Shown piece after piece: positions 524 through 63,555 of a stretch of DNA of 64,000 bases. Every line of letters begins with the position of its first letter. Position 1 is the first letter of the stretch. Both the position numbers and the translations under genes were made by a program. This stretch comes from Antedon bifida. Lineage: Eukaryota > Echinodermata > Crinoidea > Comatulida > Antedonidae. The DNA is taken from positions 18,638,417 through 18,702,416 of the forward strand of contig OY727101.1 in NCBI GenBank assembly GCA_963402885.1, given 5' to 3'. Below the pieces are notes generated by a model. That model was not told where the DNA came from and made no database searches. It worked only from the letters and a program-made list of their open reading frames with translations.

Positions 524-3500
524 TTAACTCTGAAATACAAACAAATTTCCAGTCTGGCTTTGATGGTTGGACTCAAGAATATGGTGATAATTTTGATTGG
601 ACACGCAACAACGGTTCTACGCCATCATCTAACACTGGACCAACAAACGGACATTCTGGTTATGGATGTAAGTTAGAAGAATTATAAGGTCTATTGTGAC
701 CATTAGTATGTAGTGTGGTACACGATGTGATTACTTTTTAGATAAGAGACAAGTAAAAAGTGTTTTTGGCAAACATATTAACTTGATATTAGAATAACAC
801 AGTTTATTTGTTTACTTCTACACATAGCTGATTATTATGTTTATATTGAAACATCATCTCCAAGAAGTAATGGAGATTCAGCTCGCCTTAGAAGTCCAAG
901 GATACCAGAAAGGCAAGGTCTATCCTTATCATTTTACTATCATATGTACGGAGATACAATGGGAACACTCAACGTTTACAGAACATCAAACTTAGGTGAC
1001 CAGTTGTTATGGTCAAGAAATGGTAACCAAGGCAATGTGTGGCATGCTGGTACAGTACAATTCGCACACAATGGTTATGGAAACAACTACATTATATTCG
1101 AAGGCATTGGAGGAAGTTCGTTCACTGGAGATATTGCAATTGATGATATTTACATTGGTGGTAAGTATAAATGCTGTTGGCCTATTTGTATATGCTTATT
1201 AGTATTTTTGTCTTTTATGGGGGCTTCCCACTCCCATAGTGTACGGTACATCCATAATTTTATTTGTTTATATATAAAACGGGTAAATGGTATAAGTAAT
1301 ATGATTACTAATTAGATTTGATTAAAGCTTTCAGCTCTCTTTTCAATAGTAAATTGAAACCTAAAAATAGGCCTACTACAATTTTACAACAATGTTTTCA
1401 ATGTTACTACAGTATTTGACTATAATAATATTGTCCAATAGTATTCCCTTTATTACTGCAGCTGGAATTTAATAATTTTTAGAACGTCACAACCAAATTA
1501 ATTATTCATACATTTTTCCTACATGTGCTGGCATACTTCTCTCTCTTTCATGCATAATGTATCATAATAGTTTAGTGAGTCTCATTGTGTAATATGCATT
1601 AAATAATAAACTTTTAGTTTTTGTTCATGCCTCTTATTACAGATCGTATACCATTCACTGCAATACCATTCACTACAGATGATCACACTACAGCTTCATC
1701 AACAGGTAGATAACTCGCATCTATAATGCGACACAAAGGGTCTTTCACATCTGTTCCGGCACGGTTCCGGTCCGGCGAATCGAACATCAATGTTTCGTTT
1801 CCACGACGCTCCATGCGGCTATGCGCCAATCGATATGCGCGTAGCTGCGTGAAAACGAAACATTAACGTCCGATTGGATTTTCCGGAGCCGGATTGGAAC
1901 CTTGCCGGAACAGGAGTGAAATACCCTTAAGGAGGGACACAAACACATGTCACGCTTACTGCTGATAGTCCTGGTACGCATGCGTTAACCCTCTGTCTAT
2001 TAGCTAGTTTCATTCAAGTTAGCCCTAATTTAATGTGTTAACGAAGGCGTCAACGACCAAGTATATTTTTTTTATATAGTTTTCCGTAACGTTATTTACG
2101 TAATATGTTTTCCTGTATATTGGTTGGCTTAACAGATTGGCCTGTAACAACACCAAACTATAACTGGGAAACAACAAGTCCTTCACAGCCAAATGTAACC
2201 GAAACATTTCTCTGTGGAAATGAAACTCAAATCATAACATCGCCTGGATATCCAAACCAATATGGAAACAACCAGTACGTCGAATGGACATTTACTACTC
2301 ACGTCGGAAGCTATCTTTCTATTGAATTCTACGATTTCTTTCTTGAGGGATGTTGCGACTATGTGACTATTTACAGTGACGGAGAAATGATTGGTAGATT
2401 CAGTGGTTCCAATAGACCACCAATAACAATATCTACAAATAACAACATAAAGGTAGTCTTCACTACAGATGGTAGTGTGGTAGAGAAAGGATTTCAGGTT
2501 GAGGTATATGTTTACCCTGAAGCTCCAGGTAGGTGTATTCATCTTTTGGAGTTAAATGTATTACTCTATTTCCTTTTCACTGACATGGCGCATATCAGTA
2601 TGTATTATCTAGATTAGAAGAAACGAAAACAAATCTAATGTGTGTTTCGCAAACATTTAGACAGGAGCGAGAACAGTGACATTGAGAGAATAACGATATA
2701 CACATGAGCGGTATATTGTTCCAAGAGTTTTTAAAATTGAATGTAGGAGTTTTTAAAACTTAACACTTTATTATCTGTAATATCTGTTTCAATTCTCAGA
2801 AGGATTTTGTTCTGATTTCAACGATGGATATAATGGTTGGACTGATTACTACGGTAACAATATGTGGTTGAGATCTTCCGAAAGATATGATGGTAACAAC
2901 AATTTAGGAAGCCGTTACTCGGGCTCAGGTAAAATATATGAATCAGATAAAACTCTCGTTTTTTGGTAGTCAATCAAAACTAATACTAGAATGCATTCCT
3001 TCTTCTGATTCTATCAACAAATTAATTAATCTATCAGATAAATTCAAGAAATATCAATTAATGTCATTAATCTTTATAAGATTAAGGGAATAGAAAAAAA
3101 AATCAGAAACATCAATTGATTTCATCACTGAAATTCTTTTTTTTCCCCAGATGATTACTACATCTATGTTGCAAACAACTACGGTTACAGTGGATCTAAG
3201 TATGGCTATCTTAAAAGTCCATATCTACCAGACAGATGGAATGAAATGTGTATTAGATTCTATTACTATATGAGTGGAAATTCAAATCAAGGGATTTATA
3301 TATATCATTATGCTGGAAACTACGGGAATTTTGCCTTCACAGAAATTGATGATTACAGTCAACGATGGAAGCCTGCAAATGTTACTATCAACACTGTCAA
3401 TAAATATAATAATTACATAGTATTTATGGGGATAGCATATGGTACAGAGATAGTTGCTGTTGACGATATATATATTAGCGAAGGCGCATGCTCAGATTAT

Positions 3501-6500
3501 CAAGGTATAGTCAAGTCTTTAAGAATTAAACCTTTAATATATATAATATTTTAACTTATTTCAAATAAAATTGGTATTAATGGCTTTATAAAATGCTCTT
3601 TAATTTATTATTAATCTTACAAAAATGTTCACTACATTAAAAAACAATTCTTGCCTATAGATGAACCTTCAACTACAGATGTGGTTACTGAATGGGATAG
3701 AACAACAGGTAGGTTTTTCTTGATTGTAATGTTAAATGGCTGTGATATACTGTATACCAATAATCATGTTCGTAAAATACTTCCCATACGACACTTTTGA
3801 CAAATTCGTCCTTGTACGCATGCCTTAAATTTCTGCCTCTCCTTTTTTTTTTGTGACGTGAAAGTTCTGCAACCAATCAGAACTCCAGAATTAAATGTAT
3901 TCGTGTGAATCGAGAGCATTGATTTTTTTTTGTGACGTGAAAGTTCTGCAACCAATCAGAACTTCAGAATGAAATTTATTCGCGTGAATCGAAAGCATTG
4001 ATTTTCTTTGTGACGTGAAAAGTTTTTCAACCAATCAGAACTCTGGAATGGAATTGTTTCTAAACACAATATGAGCGCAACGAAACAACTTTTTTATTTA
4101 ATAACTATTTTATCTTGACCTCCCTTTTCTTGTTATTAATGAGATTACAAATGGATAGTAGATTTATTATGTATTGTTATTATGTTTGTTGTTTTTTATC
4201 TAGTTACGCGTAATCCAAATGGTAGCTGTTTTGGTAAATGTGGTGGATACGACCAAGGCTGCTTTTGTGACGACATCTGTGAGGCTGAACGTGACTGTTG
4301 CTCCGATTATTTTTTGCTGTGTGCAAGTAAGATTAGAATGTTTAACAAATTACATAAATATAACTAATGAATACTTTATCCATTATTGTAATTAGCGAGT
4401 TTATTTTCTGCTATTGGATGCGTGTTTCATCCCACACAAAACGACTGGGGGAATAGTATTCAGCGCTTAGAAGTTTCAGAACATTAGGCGCTATATAAAT
4501 TCAGGATATTATTATTTATTATTATTATGAAAAAAAAATTAAGGGAGACTTGGTTATTCAAATGTTATTCAATAATATTCGTATTTTTATATTTTGATTT
4601 ATTACCTTCATTATTTGTATTATTATTCATTCTCATACACATCATATTTTTTCATTATTACTAATATTATAATCATCATTATAAATATTTATTCTTTTTA
4701 TTATTTAGGCATATATATTAATATTAGGCCTATTACCAATATTTCTATTATTATCATAATTAAGAATTAATGGTACTATTAAACTACTACTATTAATATA
4801 TTATATATAATAATAATAATATTAAATATGTAGGGTAAAATTAAATTAATTAAATATTAATTAGTAATACATTAACAATTTCTCCATTTTCCCATAATAT
4901 TATCATTATTTGCCATTGGATAACAGTGGTGGATCCAGGTTTTCCGACTAGTTGGATCAGAATATTGTAAAATTAAAAAACATTTATCCTAACGTTCTAT
5001 TTTTTGCATTGTATTTTTTGAAACTATAAATCACTTCTCCTGGATCCGCTTATAGATCCATGACTTGAAAAAGGACATTCCTAATTTGGAATGTATAGTA
5101 TATAACTTTATTTTCTTTCCAAGACAACACTACAGTTTCTACTCCAATAATAATAAATGTTTTATTTTCTTTTCAAGACAACACTACAGTTTCTACTGAA
5201 CGGCCTACAACAACATCATACTATAACATAGGAACAACGACCGGTAAATTTAGCATACTTTAGATGACGTCATACATTATTATGTCACATATTATTTCAA
5301 TCTTACGTTGTGAGACTGTATTCTGGTTTTCACGTTTATGACAAAAATCGTTAAATTAAATGTAACGAATAGGCCTAATACTATAAACCATCTATCAATT
5401 ACATCCCGAACAACTAGAAAGGTACTGAGAAACAAAGATGTTTGTGAAAAAATACGTACAATCATTATTTTATATATTTAAAATGGTTAAACGTCTGATT
5501 CGATTCTGATCGATCAGAATGTAATGGGATGTAACTAAACTGATGAATTTATGTTTCTCTAACCAGGCCATTTCCAACCGAATAACACTGAAACATTTCT
5601 TTGTGGAAACGAAACTCAAATCATAACATCGCCTGGATATCCTAATTACTATGGAAACAGCCAGTACGTCAACTGGACATTCACTACTCACGTTGGAAGC
5701 TTGCTCTCTGTTGAATTCTACGATTTCTATCTTGAGGACAGCTACGACTATGTGACTATTTACAGTGATGGAGAAATGATTGGAAGGTTCACTGGTTCCA
5801 ATACACCACCAATAACCATATCCACAAATAACATAATAACGATTGTCTTCAGTTCAGATGGCAGTGTGACAAGGAAAGGATTTCAGGCTAATGTGTATGT
5901 ATACCCAGAAGGTCGAGGTAGGTAACGTTCACATCAAAACGGACATATTTTAAAAAAATAACTAGAATACTGTTGAATACTATACTATAATACTGAATGC
6001 TGTTCGCATTTTCGGTAAACCATATAGAGCAGTTATTACAGAAATGCACAGCACTTCCCTGAACTGTAATTTTAACTTTAAATCTGTTTTTTATTCAAAC
6101 TTTTTTCAAATTTTCAAAAAATTATATGAAAACTCCATTCTATATCTAAATTTAATTTTCAACTATCAACTCGATCATCTACTTATTAACCTCATTTTAA
6201 TTCTCAGATGGTTTTTGTTCTGATTTCAACGATGGATATTCTGGTTGGACTCATTATGACAGTTACAATCGATGGGCGAGATCTTCAGAAAGATATAATG
6301 TTGATGATTTAGAAAACCGTTACTCAGGATCAGGTAAAAAAATATATCTTTAAAATTCGATCTATCATTCAATTATACTTTCCTTTAGGTTAATAACAAT
6401 TAGGCCTTATACAAACAATGAATGTTTATGAGTTTAATAGTGAGAATAGAGAATATAAAGTACTGCTCTGTTGACTATGATATGTATGTTTACCCATTCA

Positions 6501-9500
6501 CTCATACCGTAATCAAACAAAGGATACATGGTATGTTAGGGCTTGGCCCTACACACGGTCGAACGTGTACTGTACTATACGCTACTCGATTCTTAGGCCT
6601 ACTGTATCATAGCCAATAACATAACCATTCCCCTTAAAAACCGCCAGGCGGTGGTTAACATGAGCGTAAAAATGTCTATCGTATATCCATTTAATCGCAG
6701 TTAAAGAATGATACAAATACTGTACTTACATTCATGATACGATTCTCGGACTCACTGTCACCAAAGACAATAAAGGACTATGATACCACTTCGAGTAGAA
6801 TCTTATTGACTACCTCCTAATTTGCATAAAGGTGCACTCGCTCTACCTACAAGCGCGATGCACATACATAATACAACACAAACGATCATACAGTAGAAAG
6901 AAAACAAAAACGTTGTTAAATTGCAATGAGAATGATATAAAATAAATATGTAAATTAATAATGATATTTGGATTGATTCTTTCAGATGACTATTACATTT
7001 ATGTTGCGATCAACTATGGTCAAAGTGGATACAAATATGGTTACATTAACAGTCCAAGTATACCAGACCGATGGAATGAAGCGTGTATTATGTTTTATTA
7101 CTACATGAGTGGACAATATAAGCAATACATTTCTATATACAACAATTATAACTACTACTACTCCTCCTTCCTTTCCACCATAAATGATGATTACAGTCGA
7201 CAATGGAATTCTGCAAATGTTACTATATACACTGGCAATACACACAATTCTTACTTGAGAATCAACGGTAGAGCATATGGCGACTATTACGATAGAGAGA
7301 TTGTTGCTATAGATAATGTTTATATTAGTGAGGGTGCATGCTCAGGTAAGATATTTGATGTAATACCATTAATATGATTTCAATTGGAAGTAGAAATCAG
7401 ATTTTCTGGATGGCGGACTGATTTATCAGAATATATAAAACAGTACACTCTTTAATTATTTGATATTATTTTCAGATCAATCAGCAAGTACAGTTTATCC
7501 TACAACTCAGCCAGTTGTTACAACTCCTGAATGGATAGAAACTGGTGAGTTTAACCGAAGACTAATTAATTTAAAATGTTTAAAATCATACACACTTTTG
7601 ATATAATTTAATCACAAGTTTTCTGGGATTGTTTACACGTTGCTATGGATCAAATTTAAATGGATTTTGGGTACAACGGTTTTTTAAAAAGTATAGACTT
7701 ATTTACTGTAAAGGTAAAAACCAACATTCTACTAGCCTACCGTACTTATTCTAATTTCTAATTCTAGTCTATTGTGTACATTTAATCAACCTTCCCAATC
7801 CACATTTTTTTTTCTTTTTAGATATTGTATGCAGTAATTCATACATGACAGTTTACCTTGATGCGGCTTCACTTGGAAGTAATAGCACCGCACACTTTAT
7901 CGACCCGACGTGTAGCATGATGGGATACACGTATCGTAACGGCATGTATTGGCTGTATTTATATACTAGATACGATCAATGTCAAACAACAATAAAGGTA
8001 ACAAAAGATTGTGTTCATTTTTTATTATACCACATCTTGTTTCCTCTTTCTCCATTTCTTATTTTTTCTTTTTAGTCGACATTGTATTCAACAACTTACC
8101 AAAACCAAGTAATTGTTTCCAACGAAGGTGTTTCCAGGATTTACAGAAAAGATGACAGTCGCATAACCGTCGAGTGTGAACTAAAAAATACAGGTCACTC
8201 ATCCGTTAGTTTTGACCCAGTGGGAACAGAAAAAGATTTCCTAAAACGCGAACATGACAACTTTACATTTGCAATGGAGCTGTTTACAGACAGCAGTTAT
8301 TCTACTCCATACCCGAGCTGGCAGTATCCGATTGAACTGGATCTTGGAAGTACAGTGTTTGTTGGTGCGAGTGTGAAGACTTTTAGTAATGATATGGTTC
8401 TGTTTGTCGATTCTTGCAAAGCCACACCAAACCCCGACCCTGATGCTCAGCCTAACTATGAATTAATAAAAAACAGGTAACTAGTCAGTATAGTGTGGTT
8501 GGCCTATTACTGATAGTCTTTATAATAGTAAAGGTTCTACCTGTTTATGGGTTCTATCTGGTTATAACTGGTTCTATCTAATTATAACTAGTTCTACCTA
8601 CTGTAGTTAATTCTAGCTGGTTATATCTGGTTTTACCTGGTTATAACTCGTTCAACCTGTTTTTTCATGATTAATTGTTAAAAGCTTAACTCTCGTGTGT
8701 AGCTGTGGTCTCAGTTCCAGAAGAGGTATAATATAAAATGTTTGTTTCAGCATATTTAAGCGAAATTTAGTATTTCTTAACTAGATTAATTTTCTTTTCT
8801 CTATGTAGTTGTAGTGTAGATTCGACAGTTAGTTTCGACGGAAAATCAACTTCTGGAGACTTTTCCCGGGCGTTCTTTTCGTTTGAAACTTTTGGCTTCA
8901 GCGGCGAATACTCAACGGTACGAAAATATAAATATTAAAGATTATACTGTTAAATTATATACCAAGTACCATTTTAACATCATTTGTGATGTTTATGAAA
9001 AACAATTATTGAAATCTGGTGGATAGACCCGACTCTAATTGAAGCTAGGAATATACTTTTTAAAACTTACTATTTAAAATTGGTAATTTTCTATAATTTT
9101 TTTTTCATTAAATACAGGTTTTCGTTCATTGTCAATTGTCCATCTGCAATGAGAGTGACTGGAGATGCTCTAGGAACTGTAACCAACGTCAACGCCGTGA
9201 CGTCAATCTACCCAATAAATTGTCTGATAGCATTTCGATCGAACTTGGACCTTTGGTGCTAAAAAGACCAGATGAAAACTCTGAAATTGTTCTTGATGCT
9301 CAAGGTATACAAAATATATGTTCTGTCCGATTACTGTTTACCTGATTATGTTATCAGACTATCACAGTAAATATAAAATAACTCTATAGACGAGTTTCTA
9401 TGTAAATAAATGTGTATTGTCATTTAGAAAATCATATTAATACAATCTTTACTGTATCTTTTTTGTGTTTTGTACAAGGCAATTAAAGCTAATTTAAAAA

Positions 9501-9672
9501 TGTTTGTACTTTTTCAGAGTCAACATCGAAGGGAAAAGTTCCCGCTCTTCCATCGACTTTGATGGTTCTCAGTTTGGTTGTCTTGGCAATAGGGTGTGTC
9601 ACCTTGATAACAGGATTAAAGAAACATAAATATTCTTACCAGAAACTGGAAAACAACATGGAGGAGATGTAA
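524..9672 (+). CDS. Gene A: MAM-CUB-MAM-SMB-CUB-MAM-ZP transmembrane protein, 5' partial
   Basis: Exons 524-667, 828-1160, 1643-1705, 2136-2528, 2800-2928, 3151-3504, 3661-3708, 4204-4326, 5178-5243, 5567-5917, 6208-6333, 6986-7345, 7476-7544, 7822-7997, 8076-8476, 8809-8917, 9118-9304, 9518-9672 give 1,194 codons plus TAA. Order in the visible part: MAM (about 1-159), Thr/Pro linkers, CUB (190-311), MAM (312-472), somatomedin B (489-529), CUB (552-668), MAM (669-830), linker, ZP module (854-1144, ten cysteines), transmembrane exon (1145-1194). RQRR at 9188-9199 is a furin-type site in the usual place between ZP-C and membrane. The hydrophobic LMVLSLVVLAIG helix is followed by a basic tail with YQKLE. 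This is the longest member of the array and the only one with an SMB exon. In known families ZP modules polymerise and CUB/MAM domains mediate adhesion or ligand binding; a cell-surface or shed adhesion/recognition role is inferred. The signal exon lies outside the window. Confidence 0.9.
1736..1928. mobile_element. Palindromic MITE-like element in a gene A intron
   Basis: Both ends are near-perfect inverted copies: AAGGGTCTTTCACATCTGTT on the left and the complement of a segment ending AGTGAAATACCCTT on the right, each followed by TGTTCCGGC-type sequence. GC content is higher than the surrounding intron, and no long ORF crosses it. Half-copies of the same family lie at 55012-55213. It is absent from the corresponding gene B intron (15553-15766), which fits insertion into gene A. 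Confidence 0.6.
2136..2528 (+). other. Linker exon and CUB exon fused without an intron (gene A)
   Basis: In gene B the linker (EWPVTSPNYNQETTS) and the CUB domain are separate exons at 16719-16763 and 17066-17413, both with phase-1 borders. In gene A the same two sequences are contiguous in one open exon: the linker end TTS runs straight into PSQPNVTE, losing only the codon that spans the junction. This looks like precise loss of one intron, or fusion by deletion between exon ends. Confidence 0.8.
3853..4056. repeat. Tandem repeat of about 79 bp, nearly three copies, carrying TGACGTGAAA and CCAATCAG
   Basis: Copies begin at about 3853, 3932 and 4010. Each opens with TGTGACGTGAAA, has AACCAATCAGAACT some 20 bp later and ends near GAATCGAAAGCATTGATTTT. 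The repeat lies in the intron between the linker exon (3661-3708) and the SMB exon (4204-4326). The CCAAT-box and CRE-half-site-like words are striking, but no function can be shown from sequence. Confidence 0.8.
4204..4326 (+). other. Somatomedin B domain exon of gene A
   Basis: A single phase 1-1 exon encoding 41 residues with eight cysteines in the somatomedin B pattern: SCFGKCGG, GCFCDDIC, then DCCSDYFLLC. The SMB signature (CxxxC ... CxCDxxC ... DCCxDY ... C) is intact. SMB domains are small disulfide knots found in vitronectin, ENPP enzymes and mixed extracellular proteins. No other gene in the array has this exon. The donor is AA|GTAAGA. It is spliced next to a short Thr-rich linker (5178-5243). 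Confidence 0.9.
5110..5200 (+). other. Duplicated splice acceptor and exon start, 54 bp apart and in frame
   Basis: The segment TTTCTTTCCAAG|ACAACACTACAG, with the following GTTTCTACT, occurs at 5112-5144 and again at 5166-5198. The two candidate exon starts are 5124 and 5178. They are 54 bp apart and the intervening sequence is open in the same frame, so use of the first acceptor would add 18 residues to the linker after the SMB domain. Confidence 0.65.
8532..8659. repeat. Minisatellite in the ZP exon 2-3 intron of gene A
   Basis: Imperfect repeats of a unit close to GGTTATAACTGGTTCTACCT, about 18-25 bp each, start some 55 bp after the donor at 8477. The same repeat, in a different copy number, is in the equivalent intron of gene B (20903-21078), so it predates that duplication. 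Genes C, D and E lack it; F has only a trace just after its donor. Confidence 0.75.
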
Positions 9673-13353: not shown

Positions 13354-16300
13354 ATGAGAGTGGAAATGTTTTACAGTGCGGTGCTTTGGCTCTGCTGTGC
13401 GTGCTACGTTACAGGTAAGATTCGCTGTGTTAATCTGAGGCTTATAATTTTAATTTGTGTGTATTTTCGTAACAGTTACACGTTATTACAAATTATTTTC
13501 TTATTGTGCCATGTATGTAATTTTGCATATTATTTCGACAATGTTACTTTATCTTATCCTTTTCATGACTTGAAATAAAAAAAATATCCATTGTCAATTG
13601 CTATTAACTATTGACTAGAGGGTGAGCTCGCTTCCCCTCTAGCATTTCGTTTTAAAACCCTTCAATATATCTCCCTAAAAGAGATGTATGGAACAATATC
13701 GTAATTGTGAGAACTAACGTCCATCAAATCTACGTTTCGCGGTACATCTGAGATAGATGAGGTAGGTATCCAAGGCGTAGATCTTTCCCGAGGTTTTTTC
13801 ATTGCCTATGTCAGAATTAAGCATAATTTTTTATATAGATACAGAAACAAACAGTATATTGTTATAATTGTGAATGACAAGTGAATGGTTTTTTTTTAAC
13901 TATTAAAAATCCTATATTTCGTTACATTCAAAAATTAAGAAACAATCAACCTGAAGCTAATAGATTCCACATCTTCAAAAAATAAAAGCGGTCCAAGTAA
14001 CTATTGTAAACTCATATAAACCTGTCAATTATTTTATTTCAGCGTATTGGACACCAATGTACACAACAGAAGGTATTATTTTAGTTACATTTTGTAACAT
14101 CGTCATCATCATCATCATCATCATTATCATTTTTCATTACTACTGTTAAAGAACATTGTTTGAACGTACATCGCTTTTTTTTAAAGCACGGTTATTATCG
14201 AGTAATATTTGTTTGCAATTTCCCATTTTCTCGTAATTTAATTTTCTTAAAATATCTTTTAAACGTAAACGCTTGTTGATTATTATCTCTAAGTAGACAT
14301 TTTTTGTTATATATTTACCAGGCCTAATGAATGCACAATAAATAATATAATTTTGGCTGGTTGGAATAGAGTCTCCACAAAGGTACACAACTATTTTATC
14401 TTATTGTTTTATTGTAGTTAACGCTGATGCTGATATACAAACAAATTTCCAGTATGGCTTTGATGGATGGACTCAAGAATATGGTGATGATTTTGATTGG
14501 TCACGTCTCTTTGGTTTTACTTCATCGACTAGCACTGGACCACCAAACGGTCATTCAGGTTATGGTTGTAAGTTAGAAGAACTACAATATTTACATGGTG
14601 ACCATTAGTATTGTGGTACACCATGTGATTAAGAGCCAAGTAAAAAGTGTTTACATTTTGGCAAACATTATTTTACTTGATATTAAAATAACACAGTTTA
14701 TTTGTTTACTTCTACACATAGCTGATTATTATGTTTATATTGAAACATCATCTCCAAGAAGTAATGGAGATTCAGCTCGCCTAAGAAGTCCAAGGATACC
14801 AGAAAGGCAAGGTTTATCCTTATCATTTTACTATCACATGTACGGCTCAACTATTGGAACGCTCAACGTTTACAGAACATCATACTGGGGTGACGAATTG
14901 CTATGGTCAAGAACTGGTAACAAAGGAAACTCGTGGCTTTACTCTGGTACACTACAATTCTCGCACAATGGTTATGGCGACAACTACATCGTATTCAAAG
15001 GCATTGCAGGAAGTTCATATACTGGTGATATTGCAATTGATGATATTTATATTGGTGGTAAGTCAAACATATTAGTTTTAGTTGTATATGATTATGATTA
15101 TTAATGAAATGTATTTGAAGCTTTCAGTCCTCTCTTCAATAGTTTATAAAGTATTTTTATTTATTTAAAAATATTATCCACTTGGCGAATTTGTTTTCAC
15201 TACAGTTTCTTACAATTTTACTACTAGTGTTTTCACAATGTTACTATATTTTATTCCAGTAACCATCTCTTTATTTATGCAAACAATACATTATTACAGT
15301 ATCTTGAATAATATACTCTTTTAGAACTCTACAATCAAATTAGTTTTTCATGAACTTTCTCATTATTGTAGCTATACTGATATAATACCTCTCTCTCTCT
15401 TTATGTATGACGTTTTATAATATTTTTGTCGCATTTGTATAACATAGATATTAAAGAATAACTATTAGATTTGATAATTACTCTTGCAGGTGGTACACCA
15501 TTCACTGCAATGCCAACCTCTACAGATTATCTCATTACAGCTATATCAACAGGTAAGGATATAACTCATTTATAATCTGACACATGTACGAAGGGACACA
15601 AAAAGCGAGTAACCCTTGCCGATAGTTAGCATTATGTCTCTCGTGCTGGTTTCATTGAAGTCGAGTATGTGTCAATCCCAAAATGAAGGACCCAGTCTAT
15701 TTGCATTTCTGTTTTGTCTTGTAATGTTATGAATTAATATATTTTCTCTGATATTGCCTTTTCCAGAATGGTCTGTGACAACACCAAACTATAACATGGA
15801 GACAAAAAGTGGTAAATTTAGCATAGTTAACGGGCTACGGGGCCCTGTGTGTTATGAAGAAAATCCTAAACAAAAATGAATATTTTACGAATATGAAGTC
15901 ATTCACTGATTGTTACAATGATAACACTGAAGGCCACAATGGCAACAGGAGTTACTTAATCGTCTAAATCTCACTAATTCTATCACAAACCGTATCCACA
16001 ATGGCGGATTCTTAATGATAACACAAGACGCATCTTTTATAGTAAAATCTGAAAATAATGCATAATAATGTCATCGAAATCCGATCATGTCAATTATAAA
16101 TGTTAAATAGTATATTTAGTTATTACTACTATTAATATTTGTGTTATTATTTCATTTGTATACCTACAATAAGTGGAGTTGTGACTTGGTGGTTATGATG
16201 CTTGGCTACCACTCCAAGGGTCCTAGGTTCAAGTCCCGTCACATGTCAGGATTTTGTCTAAGGACAAAATTACAATTCAACTCCCAAAGACTTTAAATTG

Positions 16301-16496: not shown

Positions 16497-16529
<33 letters not shown>

Positions 16530-49500: not shown

Positions 49501-52500
49501 ACATACACAAACAAGGCCATATACATGGCTGCAGTCGCGTGCTCAAATTTGAGTTAGTGTTTACCGACCAACCAACCGACCGACCGACCGACCGACCAAC
49601 CGAACGCTCGACCAACCGACCGACCGACATAGTGAGCTGTAGAGTCGCGTTGCATGCGACTAAAAATACACAAATTGTACATACACATACAGCAGACAAA
49701 GTCCAGGGAATAACCCTGCTCTAAAATGTTTTGTTTGAATGAAAATTGATCAAACAATTTATTTTTTGTTAGATGGTATCTGTGCCAACTTTGATGATGG
49801 ATGGTGTGGTTGGTACGACACCAGCAGTAGCAGCCGATGGACGCACTCGTCCTCGAGAACCTCGAACTGGGGAAACAGATATCGTTACCAAGGTTAACAA
49901 GTTTCTGTCATGTTTTTATTTAATGTAACTGAACAGGAAAAACTAAAATGTAATCGATTTACGTGACCAGTTCAGCACGGCCGGTAAGTGTTGTATATCG
50001 TAGACTAACTGGGTAACTGCTCATCTACCTGCAGTTAGGAAAGAGTATTATTTCACTCTTTCCGGATTCGACCAACCAAGTAATTGGTGCTGGGTATACC
50101 GGGTAGGTTTACAGACTGAGCAGCTAAATTGGCGACTGCTGACTGATCTATGACAAATTGACTTTTCCTGACCGATTACTGGCAACTTGAGAACTTGTTG
50201 ACTGCTCTGTCAGGTAACCTGGTGACCATCGACAGATTGGTAACTTTGCGTCGGACGATCGACCGAGTAACTTGTCGTGTCTAAACGAACAGTTGTTGTT
50301 GATTAATTGGTGATTTTTTTTTATTACAGACGATCATTTTATATATGTAGAATCGACGTCTTCTGGTTCGAGATATGGATACCTTAACAGTCCAACAATA
50401 CCCAGTACATGGAACGAGACGTGCCTACGACTATACTACTATATGGGTGGGCATTCAAGTCAATATATACGTCTTTACCACTATTATTATAATTATTACT
50501 CATCTTCAACATTATTAACGATTTACGACAATAACACGCCTACATGGAAGTATACCAGTATAACATTTACTAACTATGAGGATTCGTACATCCAGCTATA
50601 TGGAAGAGCATACTCTTACAAAATGATAGCAGTTGATGATATTTATATAAGTGAAGGGCCGTGTTCGGATACTGAAGGTAGAATTATGCATATTATTAAA
50701 AACAATATCGAATTATCAATCTACGGACAAGTCCGTCTTTTTGTGGTGGTGTAAAGTAAAGTAATCTCCAATTTTAGGACCTTTTCTTGCCATAAATCCC
50801 TTAAAATATTTCTTACTGATTTTGACAATCCACACCGACTAACCTCACGACATTAGTACAGTATGTATTATATAATTTAATGTCCATCCAAATTTTTCCG
50901 CTAAAGCTCTGTTTCTACTATCAAACTTTATGTGATGTGCGGGAGTGCCCGTACAATGACACGATTACGTCATATCACTACCATATTTGGACATTTTTTT
51001 GTAGACAGAGCTTTAATCGGTATCACAAACACCTATTCTAATTATGATTAATGTATTATTCTCTAATAGTAATACCGCCCAGTACTACACCAGAAACAGA
51101 TTATGAAGAGAAAACTGGTAAGTTATTATTATAATAATGATAATAACAGGATAGTAACAGTCATTTTTGCCAATGATTTGCAGATTCAAAACATAGTCTA
51201 AAAGGCCTAATGAAGCATGTACAACACATTATGTATAAAATGAGGCGTAGCGCTCTTAAGTTACGCACGTTCGACTGCGCCGTTCAGTTCTGTATACAAT
51301 TTTCCATTGCTTAATAAAGCTGCGCCTTTTCGTGAATGAAGCTATACTCTGATGTTTCTCTCCTTTGTACAGATGTAGTATGCAGTGACTCGTACATGAC
51401 AGTGTACTTGGACGCTTCGCTTGATAACAGTGAGAACGCACGTTTCCTGGACACCACATGTCGAGCTAAAGGATACGTGTATCGTAACGGCATTAAGTAT
51501 ATCTATCTTTACACACGATATGACCAGTGTCAAACATCAATGACGGTAAATATAAATAACTTATTCACGTGTAATCTTTTACCATGTGTTATTGTGAAAG
51601 ATGTATAATTCCAAGAACATATTTCTAATTTACGCCCTTGCGAATAACTTGTATAGTGTATCAACTAAATGGGTCTTTTTTTCCTTAAGTCGACCCTAAA
51701 TACAACAACCTACCACAACGAAGTCATCATAGCCGAAAACAGTACAATGATTACAAGAGAAGACGTCATTCACATTAACGTTAAGTGCGAGCTTGAAAAT
51801 AACGGCCGGTCTTCAGTTGATTTCAAAACAGAGGACGAGACACTAGTTTCACACAAACGAGGATATGACAACTTCACGTTTCATATGGAGCTTTATACCG
51901 ACGAAAGTTACTCTACACTCTATCCTCGCCAGCAGTATCCCATAGAGTATGATCTCGGTAGCAAGTTATACGCTGGTGCAAGCGTGCAGACGTTCAGCAA
52001 TGATATAATCGTGTTTCTTGACACTTGCTACGCGACACCTAATCCTGACCCGGATGCTGAACCGAAACATGAACTGATCAAAAACAGGTATAGCTTTAGT
52101 TTCTCTTCAATAAAAGATCACATAAAACAACTCATAATGTTGTTCAAGGCTGCAAAAAAATAACCAGTTCTAAAAGACAAAAAACATCTTAGGAGAAAAA
52201 AGGCATATCACTTGCTGACACACCAGCGTCTTCTGACGGACTCCAAAATGGAGGGGTGTCCAATCCTTCATATCCTGCATGATCTATTAGGCGTAACAGT
52301 ATTTCTTTGCAGTGTACAGTATAGCCTGTATCCTTGATCCGCATTAATGTCCACGCTGCTCTTCCAATTGATCTTCTGCCCTGGATCGGTCACCAGCTCT
52401 GACACTGCTCTTCCTTCGCAGTGCCCAACACAAACTTTCTCTTTGTAATCGTTATTGATATACTCTGTAGTCAGGACTTTTTTATAACAAAAAAACTGTT

Positions 52501-54418
52501 TACAAAATTTACGAAAATAAGAAAACAAAATACAAAGAAGCGAACTACTGTACCAAACCACCAACACAAAAGTACAATACATTAACGTCCTAGTGGGTCT
52601 AATAAACATTTTTTTCCTAACCAAACCCATCAATACAAACTAGAACAAACTAAGTTGCTGCAGTATACATTTAAAAAATGCATACAGGGTAAAATGATAC
52701 ATTTAAACAAATCACATTAGTTTTGATGTGGAAAGTACAAAACAACGACAATCATGTAAGTTCGTACATTTACACATCTCTGGCTTGTTACATAGCATGA
52801 AGCATTACCGGTTTTTCCAGTATTCACAGTGCACTGTTGCACAATGAGTAAGGATCTTTCCCTACTACTTATGCCCGTTTATACATACGTCATGTATAAA
52901 TTACTCACGCATAACGGAGTGTAACCAGCGCCATCACACCATTATTGTGGATTTATTTTTTTTGCATGCATATCACTTACCTCATTCCCTAACAATGACA
53001 GAATGCGCAACAGAAAATACACCTTACAATTTTTCTTTTACTTTTTCGTCTAGCTGCGGCGTAGACGAAACTGTTAGTTTTGCTGGTCAAGTTTCTAAAA
53101 ACACCGCACGCGTTTTCTTTTCCTTTAACACCTTTGTGTTTAACAACGATTTATCTACGGTAAGAATTGTCTTAAGCTCTGTCTACACTATCAAACTTTT
53201 AACACAAAAAATATGATGTGCCCATATATGGACATGATGATGTCATAGTACTTCCATATTTGAGCATATAACTACCATATTTGGGCACATCACATTTTTT
53301 TTGTCAAACTAGTTTATAAGTGTAGACAGAGCTTTATTTTGTAAACCAATAACATCATTTACTTTAGAGGAAGATTGTAGAAAGCCCAGAAGATAATTTC
53401 TTTTTCAGGAAATATTACTTCAATTTTTTTTATTGTTTCGACAAAATCCAATCGATGATTTCTAAATGTTTATTGTTTTGTCAGGTGTTTATTCATTGCG
53501 ATTTGTCAATGTGCAACAATACTGATTGGAGGTGTCATAGAGACTGTAACCAACGACAACGACGTGACGTCACTATGCCCAAAAAATTGTCCAATAGTGT
53601 ACCGGTAGTTGTTGGACCAGTGATAATGAAAAGAGCCGACGAGGGCCAGAAAGTGAATCTGGATACAAAAGGTACAGTATTTGTGGTTGACTGAAGAAAA
53701 GTAATCACAATTACAAAAAAAGAATTAATTAAAAATCATATTAGATTAGAATGGTTTCAGAAAACAGTGAACATTCCTGGAAAAGTGAAATGTTTATAAG
53801 AGTGAAATGTTTATGAGAAGAGTGAAATGTTTATGAGAAGAGTGAAATGTTTATGAGAAGAGTAAAATGTTTATAAGAGTAAAATGTTTATGAGAAGAGT
53901 AAAATGTTTATAAGAGTGAAATGTTTATGAGAAGAGTAAAATGTTTATAAGAGTAAAATGTTTATAAGAGTGAAATGTTTATGAGAAGACCGACATTAAT
54001 TCTTTTCAATAAGTTTTTCATTAATTTAAATTATTGCCACTTCTATTTTGATTTATGGCAGCGCATTGAGAGCTTGCTTATATGCGCTATATAAGAATGA
54101 ACTATTATTATTAATCGGAAGAGTACAATTTTTGGAAGCGGGAAAGTTCAGGGAAAATGTAATTTCACTCTTTCCTGGTTTAATTTAAATTTTAAATTTT
54201 AAATTCAATTTACTATTTGATTTCCAGACAATAAGATATACACACTTTATCAACTATCCTTTCTTTCAGAGCCAACGTCAAGAACAACATTTCCAGCGTT
54301 TTCAGCTCTACTGTTTATAGTTAGTCTGGTGGTTCTAGTTGCAGGGATTGGCCAATGGATCACTGCTAAAATTAGCACCAGAAATCCATACCAACGACTT
54401 GAACATAACGAAATATAG
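46561..54418 (+). CDS. Gene E: divergent MAM-CUB-MAM-ZP transmembrane protein
   Basis: Exons 46561-46615, 47504-47647, 48266-48613, 48840-49178, 49773-49892, 50330-50677, 51070-51117, 51373-51545, 51690-52087, 53054-53159, 53485-53671, 54270-54418 sum to 2,415 nt (804 residues). Signal peptide MRAKGIFILCLYFLCIKS, then MAM (19-182), CUB (183-295), cysteine-containing MAM (296-451), a 16-residue linker, ZP (468-755), RQRR (53554-53565) and a transmembrane exon. The tail ends PYQRLEHNEI, keeping the YQ(K/R)LE motif. The signal peptide, promoter and much of the coding sequence differ clearly from the other five, and the ZP exons carry small in-frame deletions, so this is an older branch of the family. 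Introns contain two TAAAGCTCTG MITEs, a GTCGGTC repeat, a tandem repeat and an antisense ORF. Confidence 0.88.
48032..48096. repeat. Long hairpin ending in ATACCCCTTTCACAC
   Basis: ATACCCCTTTCACAC and AAAACTCCGGAG are followed at once by their complements around a 3-base loop; the left arm has seven extra bases (TAAACGC). This is the structure of a minimal MITE. The end sequence resembles the TATTTCAC end of the element at 1736-1928. Confidence 0.65.
49510..49662 (-). repeat. GTCGGTC-cored dispersed repeat, inverted copy in gene E
   Basis: On the minus strand it starts GTCGCATGCAACGCGACTCT, then CACTATGTCGGTCGGTCGG with a longer GGTC run, then GAGCACGCGACTGCAGCCAT and TGGCCTTGTTTGT. It lies in the CUB-MAM intron. 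Confidence 0.7.
50902..51015. mobile_element. TAAAGCTCTG MITE in gene E, MAM-linker intron
   Basis: TAAAGCTCTGTTTCTACTAT on the left, GTAGACAGAGCTTTA on the right, with internal CGTCATATCACTACCATATT as in the other copies. Confidence 0.7.
52268..52633 (-). pseudogene. Antisense ORF with possible ankyrin-like fragment (doubtful)
   Basis: A 121-codon minus-strand ORF inside the ZP exon 2-3 intron of gene E. The part at 52290-52460 is less AT-rich than its surroundings and includes SSVDINADQGYRLYCT. Beyond the stop, another frame (about 52195-52260) reads KDWTPLHFGVRQ, resembling an ankyrin repeat start (xGxTPLHxA). Together these hint at a frameshifted remnant of an ankyrin-repeat gene or retrocopy. 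The N-terminal half is hydrophobic and may be spurious. Identification is weak. Confidence 0.25.
53173..53336. mobile_element. TAAAGCTCTG MITE in gene E, ZP exon 3-4 intron
   Basis: TAAGCTCTGTCTACACTATC on the left and AAGTGTAGACAGAGCTTTA on the right, with internal CCCATATATGGACATGATGA and two copies of the CCATATTTG(A/G)GCA word. It is the longest copy of the family here. Confidence 0.75.
53783..53989. repeat. Mixed 17/20-bp tandem repeat in gene E
   Basis: About eleven units of GAGTGAAATGTTTATGAGAA (20 bp) and GAGTAAAATGTTTATAA (17 bp) in irregular order, in the ZP4-TM intron. Confidence 0.8.
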
Positions 54419-56688: not shown

Positions 56689-59600
56689 ATGACAGCGGAA
56701 AAGTTGTATAGCCGGTTTCTTTGCCTTTACTCTGTTTACTTTGGAATAGGTAAGCTATAGTTTATTATTAAGTACCGGTATATTAATGTAAACTCAAAGT
56801 TTAGAACGCAGTAAACTCAACGTTTAGAACGCAGTAAACTCAACGTTTAAAACGAAGTAAACTCAACTTTTAGAATGCAGTAAACTCAACGTTTAAAACG
56901 CAGTAAACTCAAAGTTTAGAACGCAGTAAACTCAACGTTTAGAACGCAGTAAACTCAACGTTTAAAACTCAGTAAACTCAACGTTTAAAACGAAGTAAAC
57001 TTAACTTTTAGAATGCAGTAAACTCAACGTTTAGAACGCAGTACACTCAACGTTTAAAACTCAGTAAACTCAACGTTTAGAACGCAGTAAACTCAACGTT
57101 TAGAACGCAGTAAACTTAACATTTAGAGCGCAGTGAACTCAACGTTTAGAACGCAGTAAACTCAACGTTTAGAACTTAGTAAACTCAACGTTTAGAACGC
57201 AGCAAACTCAACGTATAGAACGCAATAAACTCAACGTTTAGAACGCAGTAAACTCAATGTTTAGAACGCAGTAAACTCAACGTTTAAAACGCAGTAAACT
57301 CAAAGTTTAGAACGCAGTAAACTCAACGTTTAGAACGCAGTAAACTCAACGTTTAGAACGCAGTAAACTCAACGTTTAGAACGCAGTAAACTCAACGTTT
57401 AAAACGCAGTAAACTCAAAGTTTAGAACGCAGTAAACTCAACGTTTAGAACGCAGTAAACTCAACGTTTAAAACGCAGTACACTCAAAGTTTAGAACGCA
57501 GTAAACTCACTGTTTAGAACGCAGTAAACTCAACGTTTAGAACGCAGTAAACTCATACGAACTGTATGTTCACAATAATAATATTGTAATGATCTTCATA
57601 TGTATTAGGTCTCATAGTTTTTTCTTTTAAATTTGATTTTTTCAATTTTCTAACGATGTTGTTGAAGTGCTCTTCTGTTTGTATGTATAGTTACTGCTGG
57701 CATACAAACAGATTTCCAGTCTGGATTTGATGGCTGGCATCAAGACGACGTTTATACTGATGACTTCGACTGGTCACGACTAAATGGTTCTACGTCATCT
57801 ATAGACACAGGACCAACAAATGGTCATTCAGGATATGGAGGTAAGTTACCGTAGTAGTGCTAACAAGGTTTAAAGCTTAAACCATTGGTAACCGGGGAAG
57901 CCTAACTCCGAAAAAGTAGGCCTATAGTGTACGGATTACAAATTAGTTTGCAAAAGTGAAACTTGATATTTACTTTGATGCAACGCAATAGGCAAAACGC
58001 AAGCGAATTGACCAATCACAACCAACAGTATGATCCATCTCCTTCAAAATTACTTGCGACGCGCTGACGTCCTTATGTTGTATCCAATTAATTTGTTTGG
58101 ATAGGGATTACTAATTCGTTTCTAAATATTATTTTGTTTTTACAGTATTTATTACTGTAGTACAAAGATTTACAAAATATACCAAAAGTTGTTGGCCTCT
58201 CTTTCAAATGAAATTTATTTTACATTTTACTTTATTCATTTCTAAATATGAAGAGGATTATTATGTTTATATCGAAACATCATCTCCAATAAGTAATGGG
58301 ATGTCGGCTCGCCTAATAAGTCCATCGCTAACACAAGACAAAAATCAAACCTTATCATTTTACTACCACATGTATGGAGATACAATGGGAACACTCAACG
58401 TTTACAGAACATCAAACGTGGGTGACGAACTGTTATGGTCAAGAAATGGTAACCAAGGAAACTCGTGGCTGTATTCTGGATTAGTACAGTTCTCACACAA
58501 TGGTTATGGAGACAACTATATCGTATTCAAAGGCATTGCAGGAAGTTCATATACTGGTGATATTGCAATTGACGATATTGACATTAGTGGTAAGCACAGG
58601 TGTTAAAATGTATGTTTATATTATGTAATAACTGCTGTAGTAGAACCCGTTAAAGCCTGTTTTCCTGTCGACGTTATTCGATGCTATCGTTAACAATAAT
58701 CGGCGATCTTATACGTAAACATTGAAATGTTAACGATTTACAGGAAAGGGTACTCGCTATCGTTATCATTTCAACTTGATCGTTTTCAAACGATCGTCGT
58801 TGAACTGTTAACGATCAACGACAATCGCCGATTATTGTTAACGATAACGTCGACAGGAAAACAGGCTTAAGGCGACACCTTCGGGACACTCACAATTGGC
58901 GCAATCGTTTATTGAGGGCGTCCCATGGATAAGATTGAGCAGTAGAGTTGAAACTATATTGCCCATCAATCGTTTCGCGTGGAATTTTCCCTTTTATAAA
59001 GGGTGTACTAAACCTACTACTAAAATAATGATGATTGAAGCTGTAGTTTGAGACTGAACACATTTTTACAAAAATCCAGTTTTACTGAAATAAACACCTA
59101 AATACGATACTGCATTTGGTTGTCTTTTACACAAAAAGAATCGATTAACTTGAATACTTTGGACGCGACTCAATAGTTCACTATGTCGGTCGGTCGGTCT
59201 GTCGGTCTGTTTGTCTGTCGGTCTGTCTGTCTGTCGGTCCGGTATCACTATGCGTTTTATCGCTTTTCTGTACTTTTTGAACTGTTTTGATGTACAGTAC
59301 ATTACTTTTTGAAAGTTCATTTTTTTCTGAGAGCACGCGACTTATGGCTGTTGGCCTTGTTTTAAATACTAACAATAAAATACAATAATAATAATTCATC
59401 TATAGTCTCATTTTCTCATGTATAGAAATCCGTTAAAGCTACAATAGCAACACTATTTTAAAAATAAACACAAACACATTCATGCTAAAAAGTGGCCCAA
59501 ATTGAAAGTTGACTTCGCTTTTAAACTAAGTGTAATTTAATAAATAAAATTAAATTAACGGAATGTCTTTATGCTAAATTTTTTCTCTTCAAATTCGAAT

Positions 59601-62600
59601 TTTTCAATTTTCGAAGAAAGAAAAAAGAACAATTATTTTCGTTTTGTTTATAGCTCTTACAGATGATGGTCCGTTTACTACAGAAAGTCATATATCCACA
59701 GGTAATTTGTTATTGAAAAATCACGTATTGTTTGTACTGTAATTTACTAATTAAATATAGTCTCTCATGTTTTTGGTTCCAACAGCTGATCTTCTTTAGC
59801 TATTCTACAAATAAAGCCCAACTCAGACAGCGTCGTACGACGAGGCCCGACGAAACGTCTTGACTCGTCGGTGTTGTCTGGTGAGACGAGTCGTCCGAGA
59901 TTATAATATTCGGGCGTAGTTTTAGGTCGTCGGGAGAACATTAAACATATTTAACTTTCTCGTCGTACGACGCTGTTTGAGTTGGCCTATATATGTGCCC
60001 CACTCTATACTTTTAATCTCAATAATCTCCTTCTTAATACCATATTTTCTTATGAAATCATGCACTGATACCCTGACCTATTGCGTTTTGCTGTTATAAC
60101 TAAATTATTACAGTATTTAAATTACAAACATAGATATGTCGTTGACTACAATGTTGGAATATACAGATTTACCTATGACACAACCAAATATGGAAACTAC
60201 GGCGGGTAAGTTTTAACCAAACTATGAAGCTATGTCAAGATAATAACATAAACACTCAATACCTAGTAAAGAATAATTATATTAACATAAAATGTGTTTT
60301 TTCTCGATAGCTTATTTGCAACTACACACTGAACAATTTCTTTGTGGTGATGAAAACCAAGTTATATCATCGCCTGGATACCCAAACCAATATGGAAACA
60401 ACCAAGACATCAACTGGACATTTACTACTCACGTTGGAAGTTTGCTGTCTGTTGAATTCTACGATTTCTATCTTGAGCACAGCTACGATTATGTGACTAT
60501 TTACAGTGACGGAGAAATGATTGGTAGATTCAGTGGTTCCAATACGCCACCAAAAACAATATCTACCAATAACACAATAACGGTTGTTTTCAGTACAGAT
60601 AGTAGTGTGACAAGGAAAGGATTTCAGGCTAAGGTATCTGTGTACCCTAAAGGTCAAGGTAGAGTTGATTATTACTGTATAATAATAATGAATGTTTATG
60701 AAAGGAATGAAGATGATTTATATTCAACCATGGAGGTAGACAAATTCAACGGATTCTTTTTTCCCTCTTATCATTTATTTACCAAAGCATTTACCATCGT
60801 TGTAAATACTGAGATTTGAAACAAACGTATGTTTAGCCGATTTTCATGCGGTATCTTGTTCAGCTGAACAAAACATACTGTAGTATGGCAGAAGAGCATT
60901 GACAACGATTTTGAAGAAGAAGGCAAGAATGTCAAGAGAGGTTATTTAGTAGTATAATAGATGAAGGTTGCTGTCAGAAGACATGATAATGCAGGCTGTT
61001 TATTGTCGCTAAACACGATACCGCTTGCGCATCAGGTTGTTTCTAAACAACTCTTTTGGACTGACAACGTTTATCATTATCCAAGTTTTTTTTTTCCTTT
61101 CCTCATCAGATGGCGAATGTTCTAACTTCAACGAAGGATTTTCCGACTGGGCTAACGTTGGTCCTAATAAGTGGTACCGGTCCTCCCAACGATATGTTAG
61201 CTATGAAGATCTAGGCAGCCGTTACTCGGGATCAGGTAAACTATACTACGATTGATTCAATCAATAGAAATGTGATCTATCAATCAATCAATCAATCAAC
61301 CATAATAAAAACCGTATAAAAGTGAAGAATTGAATTGAACTCAATGTTCTATCTTTTACTCTGTATTTTTCAAAATAATCTAATAAAGGACGAAACCTAT
61401 GAATACATAATAACGACACATTCACTATTCTATTTGGTGTTCAATCATTACATAAATGACAAAAACAAACATGGAGCTTATGAATACAATATTACGTCAC
61501 AGTTATTATATTTGCAATTACCATACACTATTTCTATTTGATTTCAGATTATTACATAAATGTGAGATGCAGTTATGGGGAAAGCGGAAACAAACATGGA
61601 TATCTTAGTAATCACAATATACCAGAAAGTTGGAACCAAGCCTGTCTTCGATTTAACTATTATATGAGTGGATATTCAAGCCAACAGATCGATATATATC
61701 ATTATTTTAACTATTATGATTCAGAAATTTTGTTTAGAGATTATGACGATTTCAGTCAAAAATGGAAGTCAAAAAGTATCGATTTCATTAGTAATAACTC
61801 CTCATTGACGATTTATGGTAGAACCAATGGCGGTTATTACGATACAGAGATGGTTGCCATCGATGATATTTATATTAGTAAAGGATCATGCTCCGAATAT
61901 CCAGGTAAGTTTTTAATATTGTTCATATCTATAATAGTGCAATTTATGAATGTTGCATGCAATTTTAATAATTACAATTTCCAAAGCCACATTTAGAAAT
62001 ATATATTATTTATATAAACCATGAAAGATGTATTGTCCCCCAAAAACATGAAAAATGAAGATTTATAAAATCAGACTTTGAATAGGCCATTTTGTAGTTT
62101 TAACAAATTTAATCACTTCCGTAGGAAAAAAACCTGAATAAATAATATTTTCACTAATAAAATGAAAAAGAAACGGTTAAATTTAACCAAAAACATATTG
62201 GCTGCCAGCCAATTTGACTATGTTTTGCTTTAAATTACAGTTTTTTAGGTAAAATATTACTTTTTTCCATCCAATTTTTAGTAAAAGTGAATAACTATTA
62301 TGTGTACAAATGTTTGCTCATCATTCCTCCTTTCAGTTACCATCATTCATATTTAGCCCTACACCCTTTCTCCTACAGAAATATCACCAACTACAGCCTC
62401 TCCCACAACTCAGCTTATTGTTACAACCCCTGAATGGATACAAACTGGTGAGTAATAAAACATGTCATTTATTTCGTTAAATGCAATTATTCTGCAGATC
62501 TCTTCATTGAAGACTGTTATCCTGGCCCAGAGAGCCTTGTTATGATGAGTGGATATGTGTGACAGTGAGTGTGAGTACACCGGGGTCTCAGAAGATTTAC

Positions 62601-63555
62601 AGGTTCTTTAAAGCGCACATGAATGAGATATGTACACTGGACCTACGGTGTCCAGTGATCCAAGAAGCACCATGGAGCGAGTGAGCGCGCCTCGAACCCT
62701 TGCCGAACAAATGTGCTATGCTGTAATTCATACGGTACTTTTCTTTTCAGATGTTGTATGCAGTAATTCATACATGACAGTTTACCTTGATGCGGCTTCA
62801 CTTGAAAGTAATAGCACCGCACACTTTATAGACCCGACGTGTGGCACGATGGGATACACGTATCGTAACGGCATGTATTGGCTGTATTTATATACTAGAT
62901 ACGATAAATGTCAAACAACTATGAAGGTACGCCTACTGTACAAAAGATCATAAAAGTTTGTTTGTTTGTTTGTTTGTTTTATTCGGTTACATTAAATAAA
63001 ACAGTGACAAAATATTCCCACAATAAAACTCTTTGGTACATTTAAATCCAGGATGTTTTCTCTTGTTTGTTCTTAAAACAATTCACAAATTTGGTAATGA
63101 GACAATTTTTCTTTTTATCACGATGTAAAATCATTCTTTATGCTTTATTTTTAGTCGACATTGGCTTTAATAACTTACAAAAATCAGGTAATTGTATCAA
63201 ATGAAGGTGTTTCCACGATTTATAGGAAAGATGACAGTCGCATAACCGTCGAGTGTGAACTAAAAAATACAGGTCACTCATCCGTTAGTTTTGATCCATT
63301 GGGAACAGAAAAAGATTACCTAAAACGCGAACACGATAACTTTACATTCGCAATGGAGCTGTACACAGACAGCAGTTATTCTACTCCATACCCGAGCTGG
63401 CAGTATCCGATCACATTGGAACTTGGAAGTAAAGTGTTTGTTGGTGCGAGTGTGAAGACTTTTAGTAATGATTTGTTTCTGTTTGTCGATTCTTGCAAAG
63501 CCACACCAAACCCAGACCCTGATGCTCAGCCTAACTATGAATTAATTAAAAACAG
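56689..63555 (+). CDS. Gene F: MAM-CUB-MAM-ZP protein, 3' partial
   Basis: Exons 56689-56749, 57691-57840, 58254-58589, 59663-59701, 60134-60205, 60311-60658, 61110-61235, 61548-61904, 62379-62447, 62751-62926, 63155-63555 give 711 codons and remain open. Signal peptide MTAEKLYSRFLCLYSVYFGI, MAM (21-182), two linkers, CUB (220-335), MAM (336-496), Thr/Pro linker, first two ZP exons (from 520). ZP exons 3-4 and the membrane exon must lie to the right of 64000. The linker at 60134 has an alternative in-frame acceptor at 60167, which aligns better with the linker of genes A and B. Domain order matches E, but the sequence is closer to A and B, notably in the N-terminal MAM and ZP exons. Intron 1 contains the large 23-bp minisatellite. 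Confidence 0.88.
56789..57555. repeat. 23-bp minisatellite, about 33 copies, in intron 1 of gene F
   Basis: Head-to-tail copies of TAAACTCAACGTTTAGAACG plus CAG, with variants AAAGTTT, TTTAAAACG and ACTCAG arranged in recurring higher-order patterns. There are no spacers between units. It starts 40 bp after the donor of the signal exon. Confidence 0.95.
58650..58870. mobile_element. MITE with long inverted ends in gene F
   Basis: AAGCCTGTTTTCCTGTCGAC, GTTAT and TCGTTAACAATAATCGGCGA at the left recur as complements at the right (TCGCCGATTATTGTTAACGA, ATAACGTCGACAGG, AAAACAGGCTT), so the two ends pair over more than 40 bp. The ends abut TTAA on both sides, which may be the target site. Confidence 0.75.
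59160..59363 (+). repeat. GTCGGTC-cored dispersed repeat, copy in gene F
   Basis: GGACGCGACTCAATAGTTCA, a GGTC/GTCT run, CCGGTATCACTATGCGTTTT, then GAGAGCACGCGACTTATGGC and GTTGGCCTTGTTTT, closely matching 19565-19716 but about 50 bp longer in the middle. Confidence 0.7.
59815..59987. mobile_element. MITE with CAGCGTCGTACGACGAG inverted ends in gene F
   Basis: Left CCAACTCAGACAGCGTCGTA continuing CGACGAG pairs with the right end CTCGTCGTACGACGCTGTTT continuing GAGTTGG with one mismatch. The GC-rich interior carries a second internal palindrome. It lies in a linker intron. Confidence 0.75.

Follow-up and report, generated by a model that had tools for sequence, protein, structure and literature searches.

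In the genome of the crinoid Antedon bifida we found a tandem array of eight genes whose predicted products join MAM and CUB domains to a ZP module. These genes probably encode membrane-tethered, filament-forming ZP proteins with projecting MAM/CUB heads, and the array appears to evolve through tandem duplication plus exon gain and loss; we place the probability of this joint reading at roughly two in three. The case is built on module order, open frames and splice sites, on the ZP cysteines, the furin-type site and (in seven of the eight genes) the helix and tail that follow it, and on the unequal divergence of the modules. The gene models were predicted from genomic sequence alone, and cleavage, release and polymerisation of the products are proposed by analogy with known ZP proteins. 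The parts are individually known; what is unusual is the way MAM, CUB and ZP are combined and the patchwork manner in which they have evolved.

The window, i.e. the whole stretch of 64,000 nucleotides analysed (OY727101.1; C14:18638417-18702416), belongs to a 315.6-Mb genome of 27 contigs, 11 of them longer than 19 Mb. A seed-exon search of the window plus 50 kb on either side placed eight genes (G0 to G7), all on the + strand, between -29328 and 75413 in window coordinates. Six of these ZP genes overlap the window, in agreement with an earlier note on this DNA that had described six same-strand paralogues. The limits given there for the cluster (524..63555) proved too narrow, two further genes flanking the six. 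Position 524 is the modelled edge of the second MAM1 N-exon of G1, and 63555 that of the ZP-C exon of G6. Genes ending at the window edges were rejected on the flanking sequence: G1 starts 10 kb upstream of the window (-10008), while G6 ends 0.9 kb downstream of it (64861).

Architecture of the array

The ten ZP cysteines occur in the same order in all eight models, with identical spacing in six and shifts of 1-3 residues in G5 and G7. A furin-type site follows the ZP module in every model (RKRR in G0, RQRR in the other seven), and a helix with a tail of 17-21 residues is present in all but G0. The common ZP-RQRR-transmembrane-tail end that the earlier note had described is present in seven of the models, G0 departing from it by its RKRR and a decayed transmembrane (TM) exon. 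The tails carry YQKLE or YQRLE in seven of the eight models, and a hydrophobic patch in the propeptide was read by eye.

The note had also proposed a Pfam search. In the four spliced models scanned as whole proteins (G1, G2, G4 and G5), MAM, CUB and ZP-C were confirmed throughout: MAM stretches numbered five, two, one and two, respectively, and CUB matches three, one, one and one. ZP-C exceeded the Pfam cut-off in all four, and in the genome search it was found, by exon, in all eight array genes. ZP-N exceeded its cut-off in G4 (30.2 bits vs 24.7), with no report for G1, G2 and G5 at E 0.01; a single G2 exon gave 17.4 bits, and the four N-terminal ZP cysteines are present in all eight models. 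The somatomedin B (SMB) domain, previously listed among the variable modules, is represented by SMB-like exons in two models, G0 (by eye) and G1, but the G1 score lies below the Pfam cut-off (20.8 bits vs 23.1). Variation in module number was likewise borne out; module order varies less, as MAM2 follows each of the ten CUB exons in the models.

The genes, all on the + strand, are as follows (SP, signal peptide; X2, an additional exon).

-29328 to -12929, +: G0; two MAM1, CUB, MAM2, SMB-like exon, ZP, RKRR; TM exon decayed
524..9672, +: G1, in-window part; MAM1-CUB-MAM2-SMB-CUB-MAM2-linker-ZP-RQRR-TM; 1610-aa open frame overall
524-667, 828-1160, 2136-2528, 2800-2928, 3151-3504, 4204-4326, 5567-5917, 6208-6333, +: G1 exons
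6986-7345, 7476-7544, 7822-7997, 8076-8476, 8809-8917, 9118-9304, 9518-9672, +: G1 exons, continued
4204..4326, +: G1 somatomedin-B-like exon, scoring below the Pfam cut-off
13354..22314, +: G2; SP-X2-MAM1-CUB-MAM2-linker-ZP-RQRR-TM, 835 aa
25518..32818, +: G3; SP-X2-CUB-MAM2-linker-linker-ZP-RQRR-TM, 702 aa; no MAM1 found
34074..41372, +: G4; SP-CUB-MAM2-linker-linker-ZP-RQRR-TM, 692 aa; no MAM1 or X2 found
46561..54418, +: G5, a subfamily-B gene; its SP exon (46561-46615) precedes MAM1-CUB-MAM2-ZP-RQRR-TM, which begins at 47504; no linker exon found
57691..63555, +: G6, in-window part; MAM1-CUB-MAM2-linker-ZP; last three exons (64021-64861) beyond the window
first exon 68133-68187, +: G7; MAM1-CUB-MAM2, no linker found, as in G5

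The upstream part of G1 holds the signal-peptide exon, followed by a small exon and one MAM1-CUB-MAM2 unit; the whole gene has two such units, with an SMB-like exon and a last CUB-MAM2 after them. The linkers of G2 and G6 are Thr/Ser-rich.

Splice sites were first scored without a phase constraint; the phases seen there were imposed on later models, from which exon candidates with internal stops were excluded, and the open frames are therefore partly a product of construction. The seed-exon matches nevertheless show the module cores to be open, and splice phases agreed before any was imposed (for nine of ten CUB exons, for example, the top donor leaves a single base). With stop-bearing candidates excluded beforehand, the frames of G1-G7 stay open as far as a terminal stop, with predicted lengths of 1610, 835, 702 and 692 residues for G1-G4 and, without the first exon, 769, 804 and 765 residues for G5, G6 and G7. 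The acceptor of the G1 CUB exon at 2136 was picked by hand. The first exons of G5 and G7 were found through their mutual similarity, in a search that did not find the signal-peptide exon of G6.

The least sure model is that of G0, in which the acceptor of the second MAM1 C-exon was placed differently in two versions. This gene contains a MAM2 relic at -23903 and, because its TM exon is decayed, it may be a pseudogene or encode a soluble form. A Thr-rich open frame of 323 codons (-16272 to -15304), outside the G0 model, lies between its SMB-like and ZP exons and could possibly encode a mucin-like stalk.

A proposed cleaved filament and its competitors

In other ZP proteins, cleavage between the ZP module and the helix is described as being followed by release. 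In the array proteins, a signal peptide would likewise direct each product and the single helix would hold it at the membrane until a furin-type protease cut at RQRR. The C-terminal propeptide, bearing the presumed inhibitory hydrophobic patch, would then be lost and the ZP module could polymerise, with the MAM/CUB heads projecting from a shared filament or coat. The N-terminal part of ZP filaments is described as protruding and as differing among proteins (PMC11673550). More speculatively, the heads might belong to an egg coat or a mucosal lining and bind glycoproteins there, either those of other cells or those of microbes.

Two versions of this reading name the site of action, and we consider them equally possible, each on a tentative footing. 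In the first, the array would build the vitelline coat, and the MAM/CUB heads would join in sperm binding. ZP proteins are described as principal coat components in several phyla; most amphioxus coat ZP proteins have a type II ten-cysteine module, a furin-type site is reported for BbZP1, 3 and 4 of the five (BbZP1-5), and a tandem pair for B. floridae (PMC3543715). The nemertean NeZPL proteins are similar in the furin-type site, noted in all six, and in the CUB repeats of NeZPL2, and an oocyte ZP protein with eight CUB domains is described there (PMC11673550). Abalone VERL also has a ZP module, and G4 matches VERL_C at 23.6 bits, below the 27.2 cut-off. Against a coat function, the average dN/dS (ratio of nonsynonymous to synonymous divergence) in the heads is never above 1, and the amphioxus coat proteins are described with LDLa and vWFA (4/5) but not with MAM or CUB (PMC3543715). 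MAM is also missing from the descriptions given for amphioxus BbZP and nemertean NeZPL2 (PMC3543715, PMC11673550).

In the second version, cells of the gut, tube feet or epidermis would release filaments that bind microbes, as in the case of uromodulin, GP2 and DMBT1. Of the proteins with solved structures, GP2 (E 8.2e-20), followed by uromodulin (E 1.4e-13), comes closest in sequence to the G2 ZP half, the cysteine-rich end included, but likeness of a ZP module tells neither tissue nor ligand. The Thr-rich frame between the SMB and ZP exons would suit a mucosal protein but belongs to G0, in which the TM exon has decayed. GP2 and uromodulin have an EGF/D8C-type head without MAM or CUB and a glycosylphosphatidylinositol anchor; the array differs in giving no EGF/D8C-type match at E 0.01 in the four scanned models and in having a helix and tail in seven of eight. 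A further parallel is offered by CUZD1 and DMBT1, both described as combining CUB with a ZP module (PMC3654630). Unlike these two proteins, the array products contain MAM, and SRCR gave no match at E 0.01 in any of the four scanned models. DMBT1 carries SRCR domains; to our knowledge, MAM and SMB do not belong to the CUZD1/DMBT1 layout, nor is a tandem array of this kind known there.

The earlier note favoured recognition or adhesion receptors, which in this form would remain uncut at the cell surface. The single helix, the YQKLE or YQRLE tails and the variable MAM modules are compatible with such a role, but we consider it unlikely: a furin-type site placed after the conserved ZP half of all eight models should free the head, and the short tails (seven read) show no immunoreceptor tyrosine-based inhibitory motif by its usual consensus. 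We rank a filament or coat protein above a receptor because the sequence marks of cleavage and release are present, except the helix in G0. That the array consists mainly of decaying duplicates, or was created by misassembly, is very improbable. The G0 TM exon is broken and exon relics are common, but G1-G7 read to a terminal stop (albeit with stop-bearing candidates excluded), the ZP dN/dS is 0.10-0.36 where the synonymous divergence (dS) is measurable, and intron differences amount to 2-21% even between G3 and G4, the most similar pair.

Patchwork divergence of the modules

Subfamily B (G5 and G7) is far from subfamily A, with a ZP dS of 1.9-3.1 or saturated; within A the ZP dS is 0.08-0.44. 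For within-subfamily pairs with measurable dS, dN/dS is 0.28-0.55 in MAM1, 0.18-0.65 in MAM2 and 0.16-0.59 in CUB, compared with the ZP values above; these ranges overlap one another, and clearly looser constraint is confined to the MAM modules. Nonsynonymous differences are far more frequent in MAM2 than in ZP in G1/G2 (65/385 vs 10/683), G5/G7 (60/362 vs 34/677) and G3/G4 (38/395 vs 12/683). The idea of a variable ectodomain on a constant C-terminal half thus stands for MAM; CUB is mixed, being as conserved as ZP in G5/G7 (p 0.22). The most variable codon windows in subfamily A (G6 excluded for MAM2) start at MAM2 codons 90-105, with proportions of nonsynonymous (pN) and synonymous (pS) differences of 0.30-0.40 and 0.44-0.60. 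In this subfamily pN exceeds pS in a single codon window of MAM2 and a single one of MAM1, but nowhere in CUB or ZP. Strong positive selection was not found: dN/dS exceeds 1 in no extracellular module, and the single such value comes from the 51-codon TM exon of G3/G4, with very few changes.

Synonymous sites diverge unequally too. In G5/G7, CUB (10/76) and ZP (24/181) differ less than MAM1 (49/101; Fisher p 8.4e-7 and 2.9e-10, respectively), as does ZP compared with MAM2 in G2/G6 (42/184 vs 61/88; p 2.5e-13); MAM1 and CUB of G1/G2 show no such difference (p 0.38). In the ZP-N exon of subfamily A, pS is 0.03-0.22 per codon window. Exon-limited gene conversion has probably acted in at least one gene pair, maintaining the likeness of CUB and ZP as MAM drifts apart. 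The clearest case is that of the G5/G7 CUB exons, which are 95% identical (dS 0.15), with no blastn match in either flanking intron; a global alignment of one flanking intron gave z -1.6. In simulations at 1, 1.5, 2 and 3 times this dS the intron signal was lost in 0, 3, 5 and 55% of cases, respectively.

Similarity falls at exon edges in most of the non-sister pairs shown. For the ZP half of subfamily-A non-sister pairs, which are not independent, z is <3 in 38 of 41 introns. Introns of sister pairs served to calibrate the simulations, giving an intron distance of 1.26 times exon dS (a ratio drawn from few introns) and 0.24 indels per substitution. At ratios of 1.0-1.5 they predict intron loss of 20-93% at a dS of 0.36, 0-38% at 0.27 and 3-20% at 0.22. 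Compared with these rates, the loss of all four introns in both G2/G6 (dS 0.27) and G1/G6 (dS 0.22) is suggestive of conversion.

Several observations weigh against the overall reading of the array. By the same simulations, intron-similarity loss in many subfamily-A pairs may be ordinary, which weakens the proposal that introns lost everywhere mean conversion everywhere. Constraint on synonymous sites may act instead of conversion, and the dN/dS ranges of CUB and ZP overlap. The module trees are also without clear conflict. The A/B split is fully supported in all four modules, and beyond it strong support was obtained only for G1+G2 and G3+G4 in ZP, where G4 groups with G3. A ZP tree with G6 outside the rest of A was not rejected (approximately unbiased test, p 0.31); for MAM2, G1+G2+G6 together was mildly rejected (p 0.029) and G2+G6 together was not (p 0.11). 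Conflict between module trees, considered as a further line of evidence, is thus mostly not significant.

Patchwork evolution is indicated by this unequal divergence together with exon relics, which also show that modules have been gained or lost.

16302..16424, +: CUB relic, truncated, within an intron of G2
19075..19189, +: MAM2 exon of G2, 3' half only; its donor scores highly, and it is either a relic or an alternative exon
29643..29729, +: MAM2 3' relic in G3, with in-frame stops
38413..38499, +: MAM2 3' relic in G4, with in-frame stops
46020..46157, +: decayed relic of a subfamily-B CUB exon, upstream of G5

It is conceivable, though rather doubtful, that the array works as a display system, in which exon-limited conversion would keep ZP, and above all the ZP-N exon, interchangeable; proteins with different heads would co-assemble into a single mixed filament, while MAM exons could diversify, duplicate or disappear. 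The filament reading, if true, would show how one filament carries a changeable set of binding heads. The array also offers a natural test of exon-limited homogenisation, and its genes are candidates for a crinoid egg coat or innate barrier; among the open-access literature matches listed, as far as these sources extend, no crinoid structure of this kind is described.

Relatives and surrounding sequence

The MAM and/or CUB domains of neuropilins, enteropeptidase and MDGA1 align with the G2 head, whose first solved-structure sequence matches are cubilin, MDGA1, neuropilins and enteropeptidase. We know of no ZP module in neuropilins, enteropeptidase or MDGA1. A phrase search of the open-access literature matched CUB with ZP and gave nothing for MAM with ZP; no protein combining MAM, CUB and ZP appeared among the matches listed, as far as these sources extend, which is weak evidence of absence.

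Within the genome, close relatives of the G2 ZP-to-tail protein comprised the eight array genes and one gene 2.5 Mb away (C14:21.21 Mb; CUB-MAM2-ZP-TM), with weaker matches on C9 and C1. The Pfam ZP-C model gave 17 matches, 11 of them on C14. Two loci of that contig, at 14.25 and 2.88 Mb, show 35% identity in the main exon, and a MAM exon lies upstream of the latter. This genome also shows a large MAM expansion among the matches listed (a census in which 150 of 436 candidates were scored, part of 153 matches listed). Dense MAM groups among them lie at C12:2.69-2.79, C15:7.74-7.92, C7:4.30-4.76 and C11:21.57-21.73 Mb, and none of the 17 ZP-C matches falls within these groups.

Several other sequences accompany the array. 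A minisatellite (56788-57555; 33 copies of a 23-base unit, 90% matches) lies just upstream of the first MAM exon of G6, and three tandem 81-base copies, 99% alike, occur between G4 and G5 (42014-42255). An inverted 106-base pair (23197-23302 / 44213-44318; 86% complementary, 20.9 kb apart) is possibly a dispersed element. At 33376-33438 there is a tRNA-like match at the Rfam threshold (29.1 bits, E 0.057), with no ARAGORN call. Downstream of the array (77587-82462 and 86748-107774) are two long frames on the reverse strand that contain zinc-finger-like motifs, and a pair of near-identical frames resembling transporters, all labelled by eye.

In the 15,844-base mitochondrial contig C27, read with echinoderm code 9 and with genes named by eye, nad1 and nad2 lie on the opposite strand and nad4L between nad4 and nad5. 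Its cox strand contains 46.7% T, a figure of 44.9% being given for mitochondrial T content in the crinoid Poliometra.

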